64,000 nucleotides of DNA from Cyanobacterium aponinum PCC 10605 (GTDB lineage Bacteria > Cyanobacteriota > Cyanobacteriia > Cyanobacteriales > Cyanobacteriaceae), in contig NC_019776.1 of the NCBI RefSeq assembly GCF_000317675.1, positions 434,001 to 498,000 on the forward strand. Direction: 5' to 3'. The notes beneath the pieces are model-generated. The model did no database searches, was not told the DNA's origin, and worked only from the letters and a program-made list of their open reading frames with translations. The first letter of the stretch is position 1. The number at the start of each line of letters is the position of its first letter. The translations under genes and the position numbers were made by a program. Positions 4,870 through 63,196 of the stretch are shown here, in pieces.

Positions 4870-4908
4870 TTGACCTGACACCTGACACCTGCAACCTGAC
4901 ACCTTTTC
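4870..4908. repeat. 7 bp tandem repeat (CCTGACA type)
   Basis: Successive heptamers of the form CCTGACA / CCTGCAA run through this stretch. The motif recurs in at least ten other spacers of the window, in both orientations. It belongs to the short tandemly repeated repetitive (STRR) class known in cyanobacteria. Confidence 0.75.
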
Positions 4909-7505: not shown

Positions 7506-7719
7506 TAATTAAGAATTAAGAATTAAGAATTAAAAATTAAGAATTAAAAACCCCGAACACTTATTACTAATTTATCACGAATACTTATTACTAATTTATT
7601 ATTTATTACTTGTTTCCCCCTTTCCCCTCATCACCTCATCCCCCCATCTCCTCATCACCCTAACACCTGCAACCTGCCACCCGAAACCTACCCTTATCCG
7701 ATATTCTTAAACCGAATTG
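7506..7719 (-). repeat. Composite repeat spacer: 7 bp tandems plus AACCTCAG-type unit
   Basis: Reading the minus strand from the dapL stop, the unit begins AACCTCAATTCGGTTTAAG (the consensus end of the element seen intact at 37576). It passes into CAGG-heptamers, a GATGAGG/GGGGAAA polypurine tract that is almost the same as 37520-37575 and 41700-41760, and ends in TTAAGAA heptamers at 7506-7550. No gene is present in the 265-base spacer. Confidence 0.75.
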
Positions 7720-25214: not shown

Positions 25215-25310
25215 CGAATATATTTCAAAAGGACAACGGCAATTAGTAATTAAGACAAGGTAAAAGGCAAAAGGCAAAAGTCTTTTAACTTCTCCCAACA
25301 CCCCAATACC

Positions 25311-25338
25311 CTGAAACCTGAAACCTGAAACCTGAAAC
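25311..25338. repeat. 7 bp tandem repeat (CTGAAAC)4
   Basis: Four perfect copies of CTGAAAC stand in tandem at 25311-25338. They are the cleanest heptamer array of the window and lie in the convergent spacer of the kinase and glycosidase genes. Confidence 0.85.
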
Positions 25339-25376
25339 CTCTTTTATCACCCCTAACTTTGAACCCAGATCCAGTA

Positions 25377-33368: not shown

Positions 33369-34070
33369 ATGGACTATCGAAGACTGGAAAAAATAAAGCG
33401 AATTCTCCAGCGAAGACAACCTGATTTAACCTTAATTACCGATAATGTCAATAACTTTCGTAATTTATCCGCCATAATACGCAGTTGTGAAGCGGTGGGG
33501 ACGATGGAAGTTCATTTAGTTAATAATCAACAAGAAAAACTATACTTAATCAATAAAGTAACTGCAGGTGCAGAGCGATGGTTAACACAAACTCGGCATT
33601 CTAGTATTGTGACTGGGATTAACCACTTAAAAAAAAGGGGTTTTACTATTTATGCAACTCATTTGGGTGATCCCGAAGGGATCTGCTGCGCAGTACGCAC
33701 CCTAGATTATCGTAAGATGGATTATACAAAACCCACCGCCTTTGTTGTAGGTTCAGAAAAAAAAGGTATTAGCGAAGAAGCCTTAGAAAATGCTGACTAT
33801 CATATTAGTATTCCAATGATGGGCATGACACAATCATTAAATGTTTCGGTTGCCACTGCTATTATTTTGTTTGAGGCACAAAGACAAAGAGAAGAAAAAG
33901 GGTATTATCAACAGCTAAGAACGTCTCAAGAAATTTATGAGAAAACTATTTTTGAGTGGGCTTATCCGGAAGCCGCACTCGCTTACAGAGCCAACAAAAA
34001 ACCCTATCCACCACTAACGGAAACTGGAGAAATCAAGCGAGATTATAAATCCAGTAAAGCATCTTCTTGA
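33369..34070 (+). CDS. trmH: tRNA (guanosine-2'-O-)-methyltransferase TrmH
   Basis: TrmH methylates the 2'-OH of G18 in the tRNA D-loop with SAM. The 233 residues belong to the SPOUT class: NVNNFRNLSAIIRSCEAVG (motif 1 with catalytic Arg), FVVGSEKKGISEEAL (motif 2), and IPMMGMTQSLNVSVATAIIL (motif 3, trefoil knot). A stretch of about 10 residues, PEGICCAVRT, interrupts the usual GD..DYR junction after ATHLGD. It is encoded by a 31 bp palindromic repeat (33669-33699) inserted in frame. The insertion lies in a surface region between motifs, and the gene is otherwise intact. Its 3' end overlaps the convergent ferredoxin gene by 28 bases. Confidence 0.94.
   Translation: MDYRRLEKIKRILQRRQPDLTLITDNVNNFRNLSAIIRSCEAVGTMEVHLVNNQQEKLYLINKVTAGAERWLTQTRHSSIVTGINHLKKRGFTIYATHLGDPEGICCAVRTLDYRKMDYTKPTAFVVGSEKKGISEEALENADYHISIPMMGMTQSLNVSVATAIILFEAQRQREEKGYYQQLRTSQEIYEKTIFEWAYPEAALAYRANKKPYPPLTETGEIKRDYKSSKASS
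33669..33699. repeat. 31 bp palindromic repeat inserted in trmH
   Basis: The repeat begins GATCCCGAAGGGATCTGCT and ends CGCAGTACGCA. Twenty-nine of 31 bases match the repeat at 55871-55901 read on the opposite strand. It contains two palindromic parts (GATCCCGAAGGGATC and a GCTGCGCAG core), as in cyanobacterial small dispersed repeats. Confidence 0.85.
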
Positions 34071-37469: not shown

Positions 37470-37575
37470 TTAGTTCGGTTTGAGAATATTAAATAAGGGT
37501 AGGTTTCAGGGTATTTAAGGGATGGGGGATGGGGGGATGAGGTGATGAGGGGAAAGGGGGAAACAAGTAATAAAT
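37470..37575 (+). repeat. AACCTTAG-type unit plus polypurine tract
   Basis: It begins AACCTTAGTTCGGTTTGAG, continues GGTAGGTTTCAGGGTATTTA, and then has a GGGATGGGGGATGGGGGGAT purine tract ending AAACAAGTAATAAAT. The segment is almost identical to 41652-41768 and resembles the reverse complement of 7600-7718. The next element (37576) is inserted at its end. Confidence 0.85.
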
Positions 37576-37792
37576 AACCTCAGTTCGGTTTAAGAATATC
37601 TGATAAGGTTAGGTGTTAGGTGTCAGGTTGCAGGTTGCAGGTGGTAGGGGTTTTTAGCAAGGGGCTTAAGCCCCTTGTTTAAGTCAGTTCGGATTAAGGC
37701 AATTTTATCGTTATTTCTAAGTTATTTCTAAGAAGCTATAAGGTTTTTTGACTACGAGTTGGTCTGCTTTCAGCTTATCCAAAACTCAGGTT
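37576..37792 (+). mobile_element. AACCTCAG MITE-like element, full copy A (217 bp)
   Basis: The element starts AACCTCAGTTCGG, contains the 20 bp palindrome CAAGGGGCTTAAGCCCCTTG, and ends AAAACTCAGGTT. AAAT lies on both sides. The uninterrupted version of the flanks (GTAATAAATAAGTAGTAAG) is present at 41753-41771, so this is a true insertion. It has no open reading frame. A second near-full copy is at 53780-53985 and a partial copy at 58130-58226. Confidence 0.8.
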
Positions 37793-37859
37793 AAATAAGT
37801 AGTAAGTATTCTTAATTTTTAGTTTTTCCTTTGCCCTTTTAACTTTGCCCATTCCTAAT

Positions 37860-40800
37860 CTAAACCAAGTTACTATTTTCACTGACAAGATAGGTAAACC
37901 AGTTATTGAGGTTTTCTAATTGTTGACTCGGCTTCATTGTACCTAAACCTCTCACAATGACCTTATTTTTTCCATACACAAAGCGGTTGCGTAAATGGGG
38001 AGGTAATTTTTCTGCTAATAGTAGCCATGCGGGTTCTTGCATTGGTGTTTCAATAATAATGTTTTGTTTTCCTTCGGGTTTAATACGGGAAAAACCGATG
38101 GATTTTGCTTTCAATTTCAACTCCGCTACTAATAATAATTCCCTTGCTGATTCGGGTATTTCTCCATATCTATCTTGCCAATCACTTTCGATTTGTTTTA
38201 TTTCTCTCTGAGATGTAACGGTAGCTACAGCACGGTAAGCATCCATTTTTTGTTCCATATCCGCAATATAGCGGTTAGGAATTAAAGCAGTAAGTTTCAA
38301 GTCGATTTGAGTGTCTTCTACTTGGGGGATTTCCTGCCCCTGAATTTCGTTAATGGCTTCTTTTAACATTTCTGTGTACATTTCAAATCCAATAGCCTCC
38401 ATTTGCCCAGATTGTTCAGCACCAAGTAAATTACCAACCCCCCTTATTTCCATGTCACGCATAGCTAAATGATACCCTGAACCGAGTTGCGAAAACTCTT
38501 GTAAAGCCCTTAATCTTTTTTTGGCAACATCTGACAAAATTTCATCATTGGGATAGAGTAACCATGCGTGGGCTTGAATGCCCGATCGCCCCACTCGTCC
38601 CCGTAGCTGATATAATTGAGATAATCCGAATTTATGGGCAGATTCGACGATAATTGTGTTTACTCTTGGAATATCTAAGCCAGACTCCACAATAGTTGTA
38701 CAAAGTAGTAAATCTGCCTCTCCGTTACTAAAGCCTAACATAGTTGATTCTAATTGCCCTTCATCTAACTGCCCATGGGCGATCGCAATTCTTAAACTAG
38801 GTATCATTTGTTCTAGCATGGTAATAATTTTTTCCATACCCTCAATGCGAGGCACAACATAGAAAATTTGTCCTCCCCTATCTAATTCATTACGAATGGC
38901 AGTGCGAATCACCTCTTGATTAAAGGGCATGATATGGGTTTTTATCGGGCGACGACTTGGAGGAGGAGTGGTAATAAGGCTCATTTCCCGCACTCCAGAG
39001 ATAGACATATACAAAGTGCGAGGGATAGGAGTGGCACTGAGGGTTAAAACATCAATAGAAGTTTTTAATGCTTTAATTTTTTCTTTTTGATTAACTCCAA
39101 ATCTTTGCTCTTCATCTACTACTAATAAGCCTAAATCTTTGTATTTAATTTTATTGCTTAATAACAACTGTGTACCGACAACAACATCTAATTCTCCTGT
39201 GGCTAATTTTTGGATAATTTCTTTTCTTTCTGACGCTGTGCGGAAGCGATTTAATAAGCCAATATTGATAGGATAAGGGGCAAATCTTTCCACTAAAGTA
39301 TGATAATGTTGTTGGGATAAAATAGTAGTAGGTGCGAGAAAAACCACTTGTTTATTTCCTGACGTTACTACTTTAAAAATACTCCGAATGGCTACTTCCG
39401 TTTTCCCGAAACCCACGTCACCACAGACTAATCTATCCATGGGGCGATCGCTTTCTAAGTCTCTTTTAACGTCAATAATTGCCTTTAATTGATCTGGGGT
39501 GGCTTGATAAGGAAAAGAATCTTCCAACTCAGTTTGCCAAGGAGAATCAGGGGGATAAGCATAACCTTTTAACTCGTTTCTAGTGGCATATAATTTTACT
39601 AAATCAACGGCTAATTTCTTAATGGATTTTTTGACCTTATTTTTAACATTTTGCCACTCTTTACCTGACATTTTATTTAACTTTGGTGGCTTAGTTTCCG
39701 TGTGTCGATAACGGCTTACTAATTCTAAACTATCGGCAGGAACTCTGAGTAATCCATCAGCATATTTAATTACTAAATATTCCCTCCCTTCATAAACTTC
39801 TAACTCTAAAAATTGCCCAATACCATGATATTTATGGACAATAAAATCTTTTGGTCTTAATTTATCTAAATCAACCTGCTTTGAAGCGGCTTTTCTACGT
39901 TTTCTGATATAAGTAGGAGTGGCTAAATTATGTTGTCCAAAAAATTCTCTATCGGTAACAACTGCTACACGAAAAGTGGGTAAAATAAAGCCTTCTAATT
40001 CTGCTTGCCCTGAATATTTTAAAGCGGTAGAAATACCCTGTCTTTGCAGTTTTTCAATCATCCCAAAATCAAGGGGATTAGGAATAAATTGAGCAGGAAA
40101 GTCATGTTCTTGCAGTAAAGCCACTGTGCGAGAAGGTTGAGCAGAAACCAACCAACTATTATATTGACTTAAATTAATGGTGTTATAAATCTCTTTTTTA
40201 CCCCTTAAAATTTCTGCTAATTTAGCAAATTGATGAGGAGAAATAGGTAGAGGGCGACTGGATAAATTTAAACTATTTTTATTATCTTTATCGGTGTCTG
40301 TATAGATTTCTGAGAGAAAAATTTGAGGGTAATTAATGCTTTCTAAACATTCCCTAAATTCTCTATGAATTTTGATTTCTTTTTGATTTTCATAAGTTGG
40401 TGACAGGCTAGAAGCCTGTCCTACAGAAGCCTGTCCTACAGAAGCCTGTCCTACAGAAGCCTGTCCTACAGAAGCCTGTCCCACATTAGTGTTTTTTAAT
40501 TCTGTTATTAGCTGATATTTTTCTTCTGCTTGTTCAAACCAAATATGGCTATGGGCTTGACACTGTTCCACTTCATCGATCGCAACTATGGTATTGGGGG
40601 GCAAATAGTCCAATAAAGAACAGACTTGATCGCCAAATGCAAAGCCGAGAAAACGAGTCATCCCTTCAGGATAAATATTATTTTCTAAATTCTCTTGCTC
40701 AGAAGTGCTTAAATATGGTTTAATAATTTCTATGCTGGGTAAGTTATGACTAATTAAGCTCTGCCATGTAGTCGGGGTCAGGCTCAAAGACTCGATCGCA

Positions 40801-53732: not shown

Positions 53733-54392
53733 CAGGGTTTTTTCATTCTCAAAAATGTCAATTTTTGAAACTAACAAATAACCTCAGTTCGGTTTAAGAA
53801 TATCTGATAAGGTTAGGTGTCAGGTGTCAGGTTGCAGGTTGCAGGTGGTAGGGGTTTTTAGCAAGGGGCTTAAGCCCCTTGTTTAAGTCAGTTCGGATTA
53901 AGGCAATTTTATCGTTATTTCTAAGAAACCATAAGGTTTTCTGACTGCGAGTTGGGATGCTTTCAGCTTATCCAAAACTCAGGTTAACAAATAGTAACAG
54001 ATACCTTAAGGGGGGACAATAACTCTAAAAACCTTATAGGTAGCAGGTAGCAGGTGTTAGGTGTTAGGTTTTGTCTCCACTAATATTTATCATTATCTCT
54101 ATTTACTCAATGGTTCAAATAATAGGCAAAACTATTGGATTATCAACATTTTGAGATAATATGTCTGGCTATTTATTTCGTAAATATAAAATACTGTTTA
54201 TGTATTTAAAACCTGAAACCTGAAACCTAAAACCTACCCTCACTGCAGTTTCATTGTCTCCCCGTCAGAACAAATACAGGAGTTTTTAAGTATTAATTAA
54301 TCAATTATTAAGAAAAAACGCTCCCCTCTACTGTGGGAGAGGGGTTGGGGGTGAGGGCAAGATAATTTCGCCCTGACTTTGAAAAAACCCTG
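53733..54392. mobile_element. CAGGG MITE-like element, copy 3 (660 bp, with nested repeats)
   Basis: Terminal inverted repeats are CAGGGTTTTTTCA / TGAAAAAACCCTG. The 9 bp direct repeat CTATAGAAG flanks it (53724-53732 and 54393-54401). Inside lie an AACCTCAG element (53780-53985), CAGG heptamers and a GC-rich CTCCCCTC..GAGAGGGG hairpin. It has no transposase. The rest of the 1085-base gap (53560-54645) has no gene. Confidence 0.8.
53780..53985 (+). mobile_element. AACCTCAG MITE-like element, copy B (206 bp), nested
   Basis: The sequence is nearly identical to 37576-37792 apart from a missing 11 bp duplication and a few substitutions. It is flanked by AACAAAT on both sides and lies inside the CAGGG element of 53733-54392, so it arrived later than, or was carried within, that element. 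Confidence 0.8.
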
Positions 54393-54645: not shown

Positions 54646-56202
54646 ATGATGAGTAGAAAAAGAGAAATCATTATTATTGGGAGTGGTTTGGGTGGCTTAT
54701 GTTGCGGTGCAATTTTGGCTAAGTATGGCTATGATGTTTTAGTCTGTGAAAGTCATAATTTAGCTGGGGGATGCGCCCACGGTTTCCGCTATAAGGGTTT
54801 TAAATTCGATTCAGGTCCTTCTCTTTATTCGGGTTTATCTTATTCTCCATCAAGTAATCCTTTACGGCAAGTTTTAGACCTCGTTGGGGAAGATATTGAG
54901 TGGAAAAACTACGACAACTGGGGATGTTGGTTGCCTGAAGGCTATTTTGATATTGCAGTGGGTGCGGATAATTTTCATAATCTATTATTGCAGTTACGGG
55001 GAGAAGAAGCAGGAAGACAATGGCGTAAGTTGCAAGAGGTGATGAAACCTTTGGGAGAGGCTTCTATGGCTATTCCTGTTCAAGCCTTTCGTTATGACTT
55101 AGGGGCAGTTTTTACTCTTTTTCCGCACTTTTCCTCTATGATTCCTTCTCTATTTTCTGCGAAAAAACTAACAGGTAATTTTGGGGCGATTATGGATGAG
55201 GTGGTGGAAGATGAATTTATCCGTAATTGGTTAGATTTACTCTGTTTTATGTTATCTGGCTTACCTGCCCATGGCACTTCGGCGGCAGAAATGGCGTTTA
55301 TGTTTGCGGAATGGTATCGCCCTGATGTCACTCTTGATTATCCAGTGGGGGGAAGTGAAGCCATTGTCGATGCTTTGATTAGAGGTTTGAAAAAAAATGG
55401 TGGTGAGTTAATTTTATCTAGCCATGTGGCAGAAATTATTATTGAAAATAATCAAGCTAAAGGGGTGAGATTAAGCAATGATGAAGAAATTAAAGCAACT
55501 AAGGCTGTTATTTCCAATGCCTCCATTTGGGATACTTTAGCTCTTATTCCCGAAGGGATGTTAGATTCTGAATCTAGAAGCAAAAGCGAAAAAACTCCCA
55601 TTAATCCTAGTTTTATGCACCTTCATTTGGGGATTGACGGAAAAGATATTCCTAATGATTTACCTTGTCATCACATGATTGTTAATGATTGGCAAAGGGG
55701 AGTTACCGCTCCTCAAAATGTGATTGCCGTTTCGATTCCCTCTCTTTTAGATTCTTCTTTAGCACCTCTGGGTAAACACTCTATTCATGTTTATACCCCC
55801 GCTACAGAACCCTATGAATTATGGGCAGATTTGAATCCCAATAGTCCAGAATATCAGGAAATGAAAGAGATGCGTGCTGCGTAGCAGATCCCTTCGGGAT
55901 CGCAACCTATGTGGGAAGCCCTAGCCCGATTTATTCCAGATATAAAAGAGCGATGGGAAGTGAAATTAGTTGGTACACCTTTAACCCATGAACGCTTTTT
56001 AAGACGTTATAGGGGTACTTATGGTGCCGCATGGAAAGCAGGAGAATCTTTATTTGCCCCTGCTACAACTCCTGTAAAAAATCTATATTGCTGTGGTGAC
56101 TCTACTTTTCCCGGAATAGGTGTTCCTGCCGTTGCCGCCAGTGGTATTATGACAGCTAATACTGTGGCAAATATTTTCCAACAATGGAAATTTTGGCATT
56201 AG
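54646..56202 (+). pseudogene. CRTISO/phytoene desaturase-like FAD oxidoreductase gene with in-frame stop from an inserted repeat
   Basis: The gene encodes a FAD flavoprotein of the carotenoid isomerase/desaturase group: N-terminal EIIIIGSGLGGLCCGAILA, GGCAHGFRYKGFKFDSGPSL, and C-terminal LYCCGDSTFPGIGVPAVAAS G. The reading frame is the same on both sides of a 31 bp repeat (55871-55901), but the repeat places a TAG at 55882-55884. The first product ends EMRAA after 412 residues, and the rest (55909-56202, MWEALARFIPDIKERWEVKL) lacks its N-terminal two thirds. Intact length would be about 518 residues. Readthrough or reinitiation cannot be excluded. Substrate in this subgroup is uncertain. Confidence 0.8.
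55871..55901. repeat. 31 bp palindromic repeat inserted in the CRTISO-like gene
   Basis: The sequence TGCGTGCTGCGTAGCAGATC then CCTTCGGGATC is the reverse complement of the trmH repeat (33669-33699) with two differences. In this orientation and frame it contains a TAG stop. Confidence 0.88.
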
Positions 56203-58129: not shown

Positions 58130-58226
58130 AACCTGAGTTTTGAATAAGCTGAAAGTATTATTTTCTCGTGGTTGGAAAACCTTATAGCTTCTTAGAAATA
58201 ACAATAAAATTGCCTTAATCCGAACT
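58130..58226 (-). repeat. AACCTCAG element, partial copy
   Basis: The 97 bp segment beginning AACCTGAGTTTTGAATAAGC and ending AATCCGAACTGA is the reverse complement of the right half of the 37576 element. It lies in the region between the hydrolase and the ABC ATPase and contains an apparent upstream start codon of the latter frame, which is therefore spurious. Confidence 0.8.
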
Positions 58227-58326
58227 GATGTTGCTAAAAATGTGCAATTTGAAAGGTAAAGTGATATATTTAAGATTGTTGAAAATAATTCTTATTAAAT
58301 ATCAGTTATCATTGGCGAGGCACATA

Positions 58327-61619: not shown

Positions 61620-61717
61620 CTCCAACACCTGCAACCTGAAACCTGAAACCTGACACCTTGTCTCCCTCTCCCCTAAACACCCTGACACCTCACCTATTCT
61701 TAAACCGAACTGAGGTT
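61620..61717 (-). repeat. Heptamer repeats and AACCTCAG-type unit
   Basis: CCTGCAA, CCTGAAA, CCTGAAA and CCTGACA units stand in tandem at 61629-61656. They are followed by a minus-strand AACCTCAGTTCGGTTTAAG unit that ends at 61715. Confidence 0.75.
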
Positions 61718-63056: not shown

Positions 63057-63196
63057 CCCTTTCGAGGGAGGAGAGGAAAGGTAAATAGTTAAGAATTAAG
63101 GATTAAGAATTAAAAACACCTGAAACCCGAAACCTGACACCTGTCAGCCCTTTCCGAACCCCGAACTCCCTCATATCCCAAGCCCTACCACTTAGC

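Follow-up and report, generated by a model that had tools for sequence, protein, structure and literature searches.

A 24-bp repeat splits a HIP1 octamer and probably inactivates a CRTISO-like gene in Cyanobacterium aponinum PCC 10605

When a short palindromic repeat places a stop codon inside a gene, is the gene lost, or is it still read to its end? The question is raised by a stretch of 64,000 nucleotides of the Cyanobacterium aponinum PCC 10605 genome (contig NC_019776.1, positions 434,001 to 498,000; hereafter the window), in which a flavoprotein gene resembling the carotenoid isomerase CRTISO starts at position 54646 and meets a TAG codon within such a repeat. An earlier reading made from the letters of the DNA alone (the sequence-only reading) had described the repeat as a 31-bp insertion at 55871-55901 and the gene as either dead or read through into a 518-residue protein. 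Comparison with relatives, above all with one genome of the same genus (G001), leads us to the view that a repeat of the SDR5 type very probably entered a HIP1 octamer recently and caused the loss of a dispensable CRTISO-like gene, leaving a young pseudogene.

The insertion is delimited by the G001 orthologue of the window gene (L031), in which the empty site is ATGCGATCGCA. Around this point L031 has GAGATGCGATCGCAGCC, and the window has GAGATGCG, TGCTGCGTAGCAGATCCCTTCGGG and ATCGCAACC in succession; HIP1 (GCGATCGC), a cyanobacterial octamer, is split by the insert between its third and fourth bases, and target duplication is not seen. Measured against L031 the insert is of 24 bp and not of 31 bp, since the latter length cannot keep the frame, and the outer parts of the 31-mer (55871-55874 and 55899-55901) are host bases that belong to the split octamer or border on it. 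The frame is indeed the same before and after the repeat, as the sequence-only reading held: both the TAG and the downstream 55909-56202 part are in frame with the ATG at 54646, the insertion is in frame, and its internal TAG is the sole lesion seen. The orthologue alignment that had been proposed for finding the exact inserted bases supports an insertion and corrects its extent (Table 1), with the reservation that a shared G lets the insert start one base further left. Orthologues contain the same residues without the repeat, an outcome that the sequence-only reading had counted against itself and that instead confirms the insertion. An uninterrupted HIP1 lies at the same codon in five of the seven same-family orthologues (L031-L034 and L036; not L035 and L038), which indicates that the empty state is ancestral and the insertion derived in PCC 10605, and the orthologues readable at the site, some loci being unparsed, keep the spacing without the insert.

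Table 1. Positions in the window of the interrupted gene, the insert and its parts, and the second copy of the repeat.
Feature	Position	Strand	Basis or remark
Truncated CRTISO-like FAD oxidoreductase frame, 412 aa	54646..55884	+	ends at the insert's TAG; 96% identity to L031 of G001
Left part (GCG) of split HIP1 octamer	55872..55874	+	GCGATCGC at same codon in L031-L034, L036
24-bp repeat fitting the SDR5 type, exact insertion	55875..55898	+	alignment with empty site in L031; ends ambiguous by one base
In-frame TAG brought by the insert	55882..55884	+	in frame with ATG 54646
Hairpin GATCCC-TTC-GGGATC, repeat plus three host bases	55887..55901	+	pair counts over 32 distinct copies
Right part (ATCGC) of split HIP1 octamer	55899..55903	+	alignment with empty site
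Orphaned C-terminal part with conserved GDSTFPGIGVPAVAASG stretch	55909..56202	+	matches TIGR02730 positions 403-489
Second repeat copy, 24-bp insert, one-base ambiguity	33672..33695	-	in TrmH-type tRNA methyltransferase gene 33369-34070

The host gene was rightly called CRTISO-like, TIGR02730 being its best NCBIfam model, and on this account it is a relative of the CRTISO/CrtH carotenoid isomerases; it differs from them in that its full-length orthologue L031 scores far under the curated cut-off of that model (289.5 against 586.9 bits). A separate, intact CRTISO elsewhere in the PCC 10605 genome reaches 933.7 bits, and this other gene is the true CRTISO of the strain. Residues 1-411 of the window gene share the identity given in Table 1 with L031, which is itself uninterrupted. 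With the stop ignored, the frame covers 518 codons (54646-56199), in agreement with the read-through length calculated earlier. The TAG shortens the flavoprotein from about 511 to 412 residues, and the C-terminal part so lost includes the alignment-invariant residues G475, D476, S477, F479, P480 and G481. Among the other genomes, 21 have an orthologue at E 5.5e-164 or better, and in each the frame is uninterrupted and at least 512 codons long. At E < 1e-200, orthologues occur in 7 of 14 genomes of the same family or genus (one of the remaining seven is only 67% complete), and the gene is therefore dispensable in the family.

The repeat itself, TGCTGCGNAGCAGATCCCTTCGGG, belongs to a dispersed family, and its reality as a repeat, claimed before, is borne out by 15 genome copies of the 30-mer (up to 3 mismatches) against none of the reversed pattern. 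Its core, GATCCCTTCGGGATC, occurs in the window at 55887-55901 and at 33669-33683, two occurrences (up to 2 mismatches) against a mean of 0.05 in shuffles, and the exact 15-base core is found ten times in the genome, with the reversed pattern again absent. Core and 30-mer matches combined give 17 known copies, three of which, beyond the window copy, are identical to it over 30 bp. Eleven of these copies were sought in G001 by one query, with L024, L005 and L006 left out: exactly 24 bp are absent there in six (L013, L014, L015, L019, L020, L021), three are filled in both genomes (L012, L016, L023), L018 could not be safely aligned and L022 had no match. Together with the window gene (L011), G001 thus offers seven exact empty sites, every difference being of 24 bp; HIP1 is perfect at five of them (L011, L015, L019, L020, L021) and one base off at L013 and L014, and no target duplication was observed at any of the seven. 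For two further copies, L017 and L025, the corresponding place in G001 is occupied as well (L150, L183). The distribution is narrow, with the repeat (1 mismatch) in 7 of 100 genomes of a draw of relatives and, by a slightly different pattern, in 3 of 242 genomes of a class draw, the own genome being counted in both; searches for the site in plasmids and in phages returned a single weak match each. Among the matches listed from a partial literature collection, no title dealt with this repeat in this genus.

SDR5 repeats are very small, dispersed, hairpin-forming and recently mobile, and Elhai and colleagues are said to have described, in 2008, repeats of 21-27 nt of which SDR5 lay only within HIP1. 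The window repeat resembles them in size, with 24 bp at all seven sites, and in being dispersed and multicopy, and differs in its narrow distribution. It also enters HIP1 between the third and fourth nucleotides at the seven empty sites, with the one-base ambiguity of its ends, and Elhai (2015, PMC4390886), with reference to the 2008 paper, reports insertion of the very small repeat SDR5 at this position. By target, position, size and dispersion the window repeat fits the SDR5 type. Rickettsia palindromic elements (RPEs) are alike in being palindromic repeats inserted in frame within genes, but they are much longer (about 100-150 bp), come from another phylum and have no tie to HIP1. A survey of REPs (PMC3733652) describes RPEs in frame within genes that are likely still functional, as well as GTAG REPs that often supply TAG stops to flanking frames and sometimes lie inside genes, so that a stop-bringing repeat is not new in kind.

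GTAG REPs are likewise short palindromes with some copies inside genes, and one rival reading takes the window repeat for a REP whose mover is a REP-associated tyrosine transposase (RAYT). Two neighbourhoods were suggestive of this: the L025 copy lies 57 bp after a RAYT gene, with the same arrangement in G001, and in another genome (G056) some 33 bp separate a copy from a different RAYT downstream of it. A first set of 18 Y1/RAYT loci (L025, L183, L204-L219; gene parsed in 12) has the repeat adjoining the gene in three, namely L025 and L183, which are one orthologous place, and L212. Over the 30 best homologous RAYT loci, however, the 24-bp repeat is present at only two, again one orthologous place, while a GGGGCG...CGCCCC palindrome lies within 300 bp of the gene or inside it in 25, as against 0/29 and 0/136 stretches of other loci used as controls, and it is therefore this palindrome that looks like the partner of this RAYT group. 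In addition, the window repeat lacks the conserved GTAG tag, the second base being T, A, C or G, and it lies mostly over open frames (15 of the 17 copies in PCC 10605, taking the longest stop-to-stop frame of at least 100 codons over each copy, not necessarily a gene), whereas REPs are mainly extragenic. With the homologous loci and their controls withholding support, movement by a RAYT was rejected as a very improbable explanation. The RAYT protein gave no match to solved structures at E 0.001.

Two observations on the RAYT genes themselves may be recorded. A GTAGGGGCGAACGGCCGTTCGCCCCTAC palindrome, of the kind seen at the 25 loci above, sits in frame within the coding sequence of the L025 RAYT itself (L025:1159-1186 within 868-1446), and this stretch is encoded in G001 too (VGANGRSPLQT). 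RAYTs 86% and 85% identical to that of PCC 10605 were found in G050 and G072 (L222 and L223), which belong to another family of the order, the next best listed being 66% identical; horizontal transfer is possible. As to another route of movement, reverse transcriptases gave three matches each in PCC 10605 and G001 and are present in 11 of the 14 genomes searched, and G011 has a repeat copy and no reverse transcriptase match; this distribution weighs neither for nor against movement through RNA.

Starting from what the alignments give directly, i.e., the exact 24-bp difference at this and six other sites, the HIP1 or near-HIP1 target, the TAG and the intact orthologues, the course of events may be pictured as follows. 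A mobile repeat of the SDR5 type, non-coding and able to form a hairpin, entered HIP1 between bases 3 and 4, the target lying in the codon phase xxG CGA TCG C within the dispensable CRTISO-like gene. Its orientation and phase would give CGT GCT GCG TAG, so that translation would end after residue 412, and the product, deprived of the conserved C-terminal part, would most likely be non-functional. SDR5 is characterised by a secondary structure with compensatory changes, and for the window repeat conservation of the hairpin among copies is modest: of 32 distinct copies three have a two-sided change in the 6-bp stem, but the two pairs concerned also show six broken cells and another pair two, and the first stem is poorly kept.

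Some points weigh against a young pseudogene. A second lesion was not seen in the gene, which leaves two readings, a young insertion or a gene that has stayed in use. The ratio of nonsynonymous to synonymous substitution rates (dN/dS) with respect to G001 is low on both sides of the insert, as it would also be in a functional gene: 0.10 before it (19 nonsynonymous and 44 synonymous differences) and 0.05 after it (3 and 15). The comparison of two genomes cannot date the insertion, which, seen in a single isolate of the species, may not be fixed there, and many in-frame stops in bacteria have been argued, in the abstract of PMC7918605, not to mark pseudogenes.

Of the two fates that the sequence-only reading had left side by side, death of the gene fits better. 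Read-through would require the TAG to be passed often enough to yield the full 518-residue protein, perhaps aided by the hairpin that begins two bases after it. The unchanged frame without further lesion, the stem-loop and the low dN/dS of the C-terminal part are compatible with such a process, and the same abstract (PMC7918605) reports that stops of this kind, in frame and with low dN/dS, occur widely in bacteria. None of these, however, supports it positively, since a young insertion leaves dN/dS powerless on this matter, and the RNA fold at the site is no more stable than shuffles (z -0.8). No CTA anticodon was found among the 43 tRNA genes detected, all of them typed (150 of 344 candidates scored; near-cognate decoding is possible), and TAG serves as an ordinary stop in the window, where it ends 11 of 41 long frames, 10 besides the truncated one, and where it was also the ancestral last codon of the interrupted gene. 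The product of read-through would carry eight extra residues, Pro-Ser-Gly included, within a predicted helix: in a model of the orthologue L060 (511 aa, 24-sequence alignment, mean pLDDT 83.5) the site falls in the middle of helix 400-417, with pLDDT of 91 and 95 in ten-residue blocks, and the C-terminal segments 438-452 and 478-481 of the same model stay below 50. In the C-terminal part of the window gene, moreover, Trp has replaced a Cys that is shared by G001 and the five outgroups compared, at a position that is variable in the wider family. Altogether, read-through to a full protein seems very unlikely.

Less likely still is a split gene, in which translation would restart at ATG 55909, 24 bases past the TAG, and the two pieces would assemble. 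The downstream frame does open with an ATG, at the conserved Met-Trp of the family, but this ATG is an ancestral internal methionine (present in L031), the break falls inside the predicted helix, and the frames of the 21 other genomes mentioned above are all undivided. An error of sequencing or assembly, judged from the assembly, can be practically dismissed, as the insert, exactly 24 bp long, belongs to the repeat family and stands at the target usual for it, with three further 30-bp-identical copies in a near-complete two-contig assembly.

The probable loss of the CRTISO-like gene is set in relief by the second copy of the repeat in the window, which reads DPEGICCAV in frame, without a stop. 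Its host gene product scores 223.6 bits to PRK11081, just under the cut-off of 227, and G001 (L162 against L019) lacks these 24 bp and has a perfect HIP1 in place. As 24 is a multiple of three, each in-frame insertion adds eight codons, and the 15 in-frame copies of PCC 10605 distribute over nine DPEGICYAAR-like, three IPKGSATQH-like and two ACCVADPFG-like readings and one R-A-A-stop, that of the CRTISO-like gene, which alone brings a stop; one reading of the six contains it. Two G056 copies in the stop-prone reading (L148, L156) have AAG where the window copy has TAG, and the L012 copy possibly lies upstream of a start codon. Over 46 copies from all genomes examined, with the orthologous duplicate L150 dropped, phase 2 holds 13 reverse copies and one forward, and phase 1 six reverse and eight forward (Fisher p = 0.013); the bias within phase 2 alone has p = 0.002, in a test that was picked after the data had been seen and on small numbers. 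Such a phase-specific bias of orientation would point to the inserted peptide as the object of selection, and not to insertion favouring one strand. There is no need to invoke selection against the stop-bearing phase 3, which is rare among HIP1 sites in any case: it holds 1 of 15 in-frame copies as compared to 3 of 32 HIP1 sites in the long frames of the window (Fisher p = 1). HIP1 sites may serve as landing pads for a repeat that multiplies chiefly within proteins, in the form of inserts of eight residues, with the DPEGICYAAR reading favoured by selection on the protein and the CRTISO-like gene hit in a rare gene-killing phase, an account that we put forward tentatively, as rather less than an even bet.

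The locus shows cleanly how one of the smallest mobile repeats interrupts a gene at a target of eight defined bases, the filled and the empty state being found in two closely related genomes. Since the genes of many cyanobacteria are very rich in HIP1, such a repeat keeps supplying inserts of eight residues and, in one of six readings, gene losses. The seven exact differences make both target choice and selection at the protein level testable, and the same dimorphic sites constitute a small system for studying how such repeats move.

Other copies of the repeat show some variation. Those at L005:1486-1515 and L006:1486-1515 (reverse strand of the loci) are divergent, with first halves TCCTGTGCCGCA and TCCTGTACCGCC, and keep the hairpin and the DPEGI reading; they perhaps represent a second subfamily. 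The copy shared by L016 and its orthologous place in G001 (L158) lies in a frame of 307 codons in PCC 10605, and no frame of at least 100 codons covers it in G001, where the host gene may be broken.

The window holds further repeats. Segments at 37561-37794, 53765-53987 and 58165-58228 contain repeats 157 nt and 74 nt long (98% and 92% alike, respectively), an incomplete copy at 58165 being inverted; together they have the appearance of a single mobile element some 230 bp in length. A tandem array at 40410-40485 consists of about five copies of AGAAGCCTGTCCTAC with 98% matches. Finally, a family of heptamer-like repeats (CCTGAAA and variants) counts 13 copies in the window, among them those at 4872-4906, 7664-7698, 25308-25342, 54210-54244, 61633-61667 and 63117-63151.
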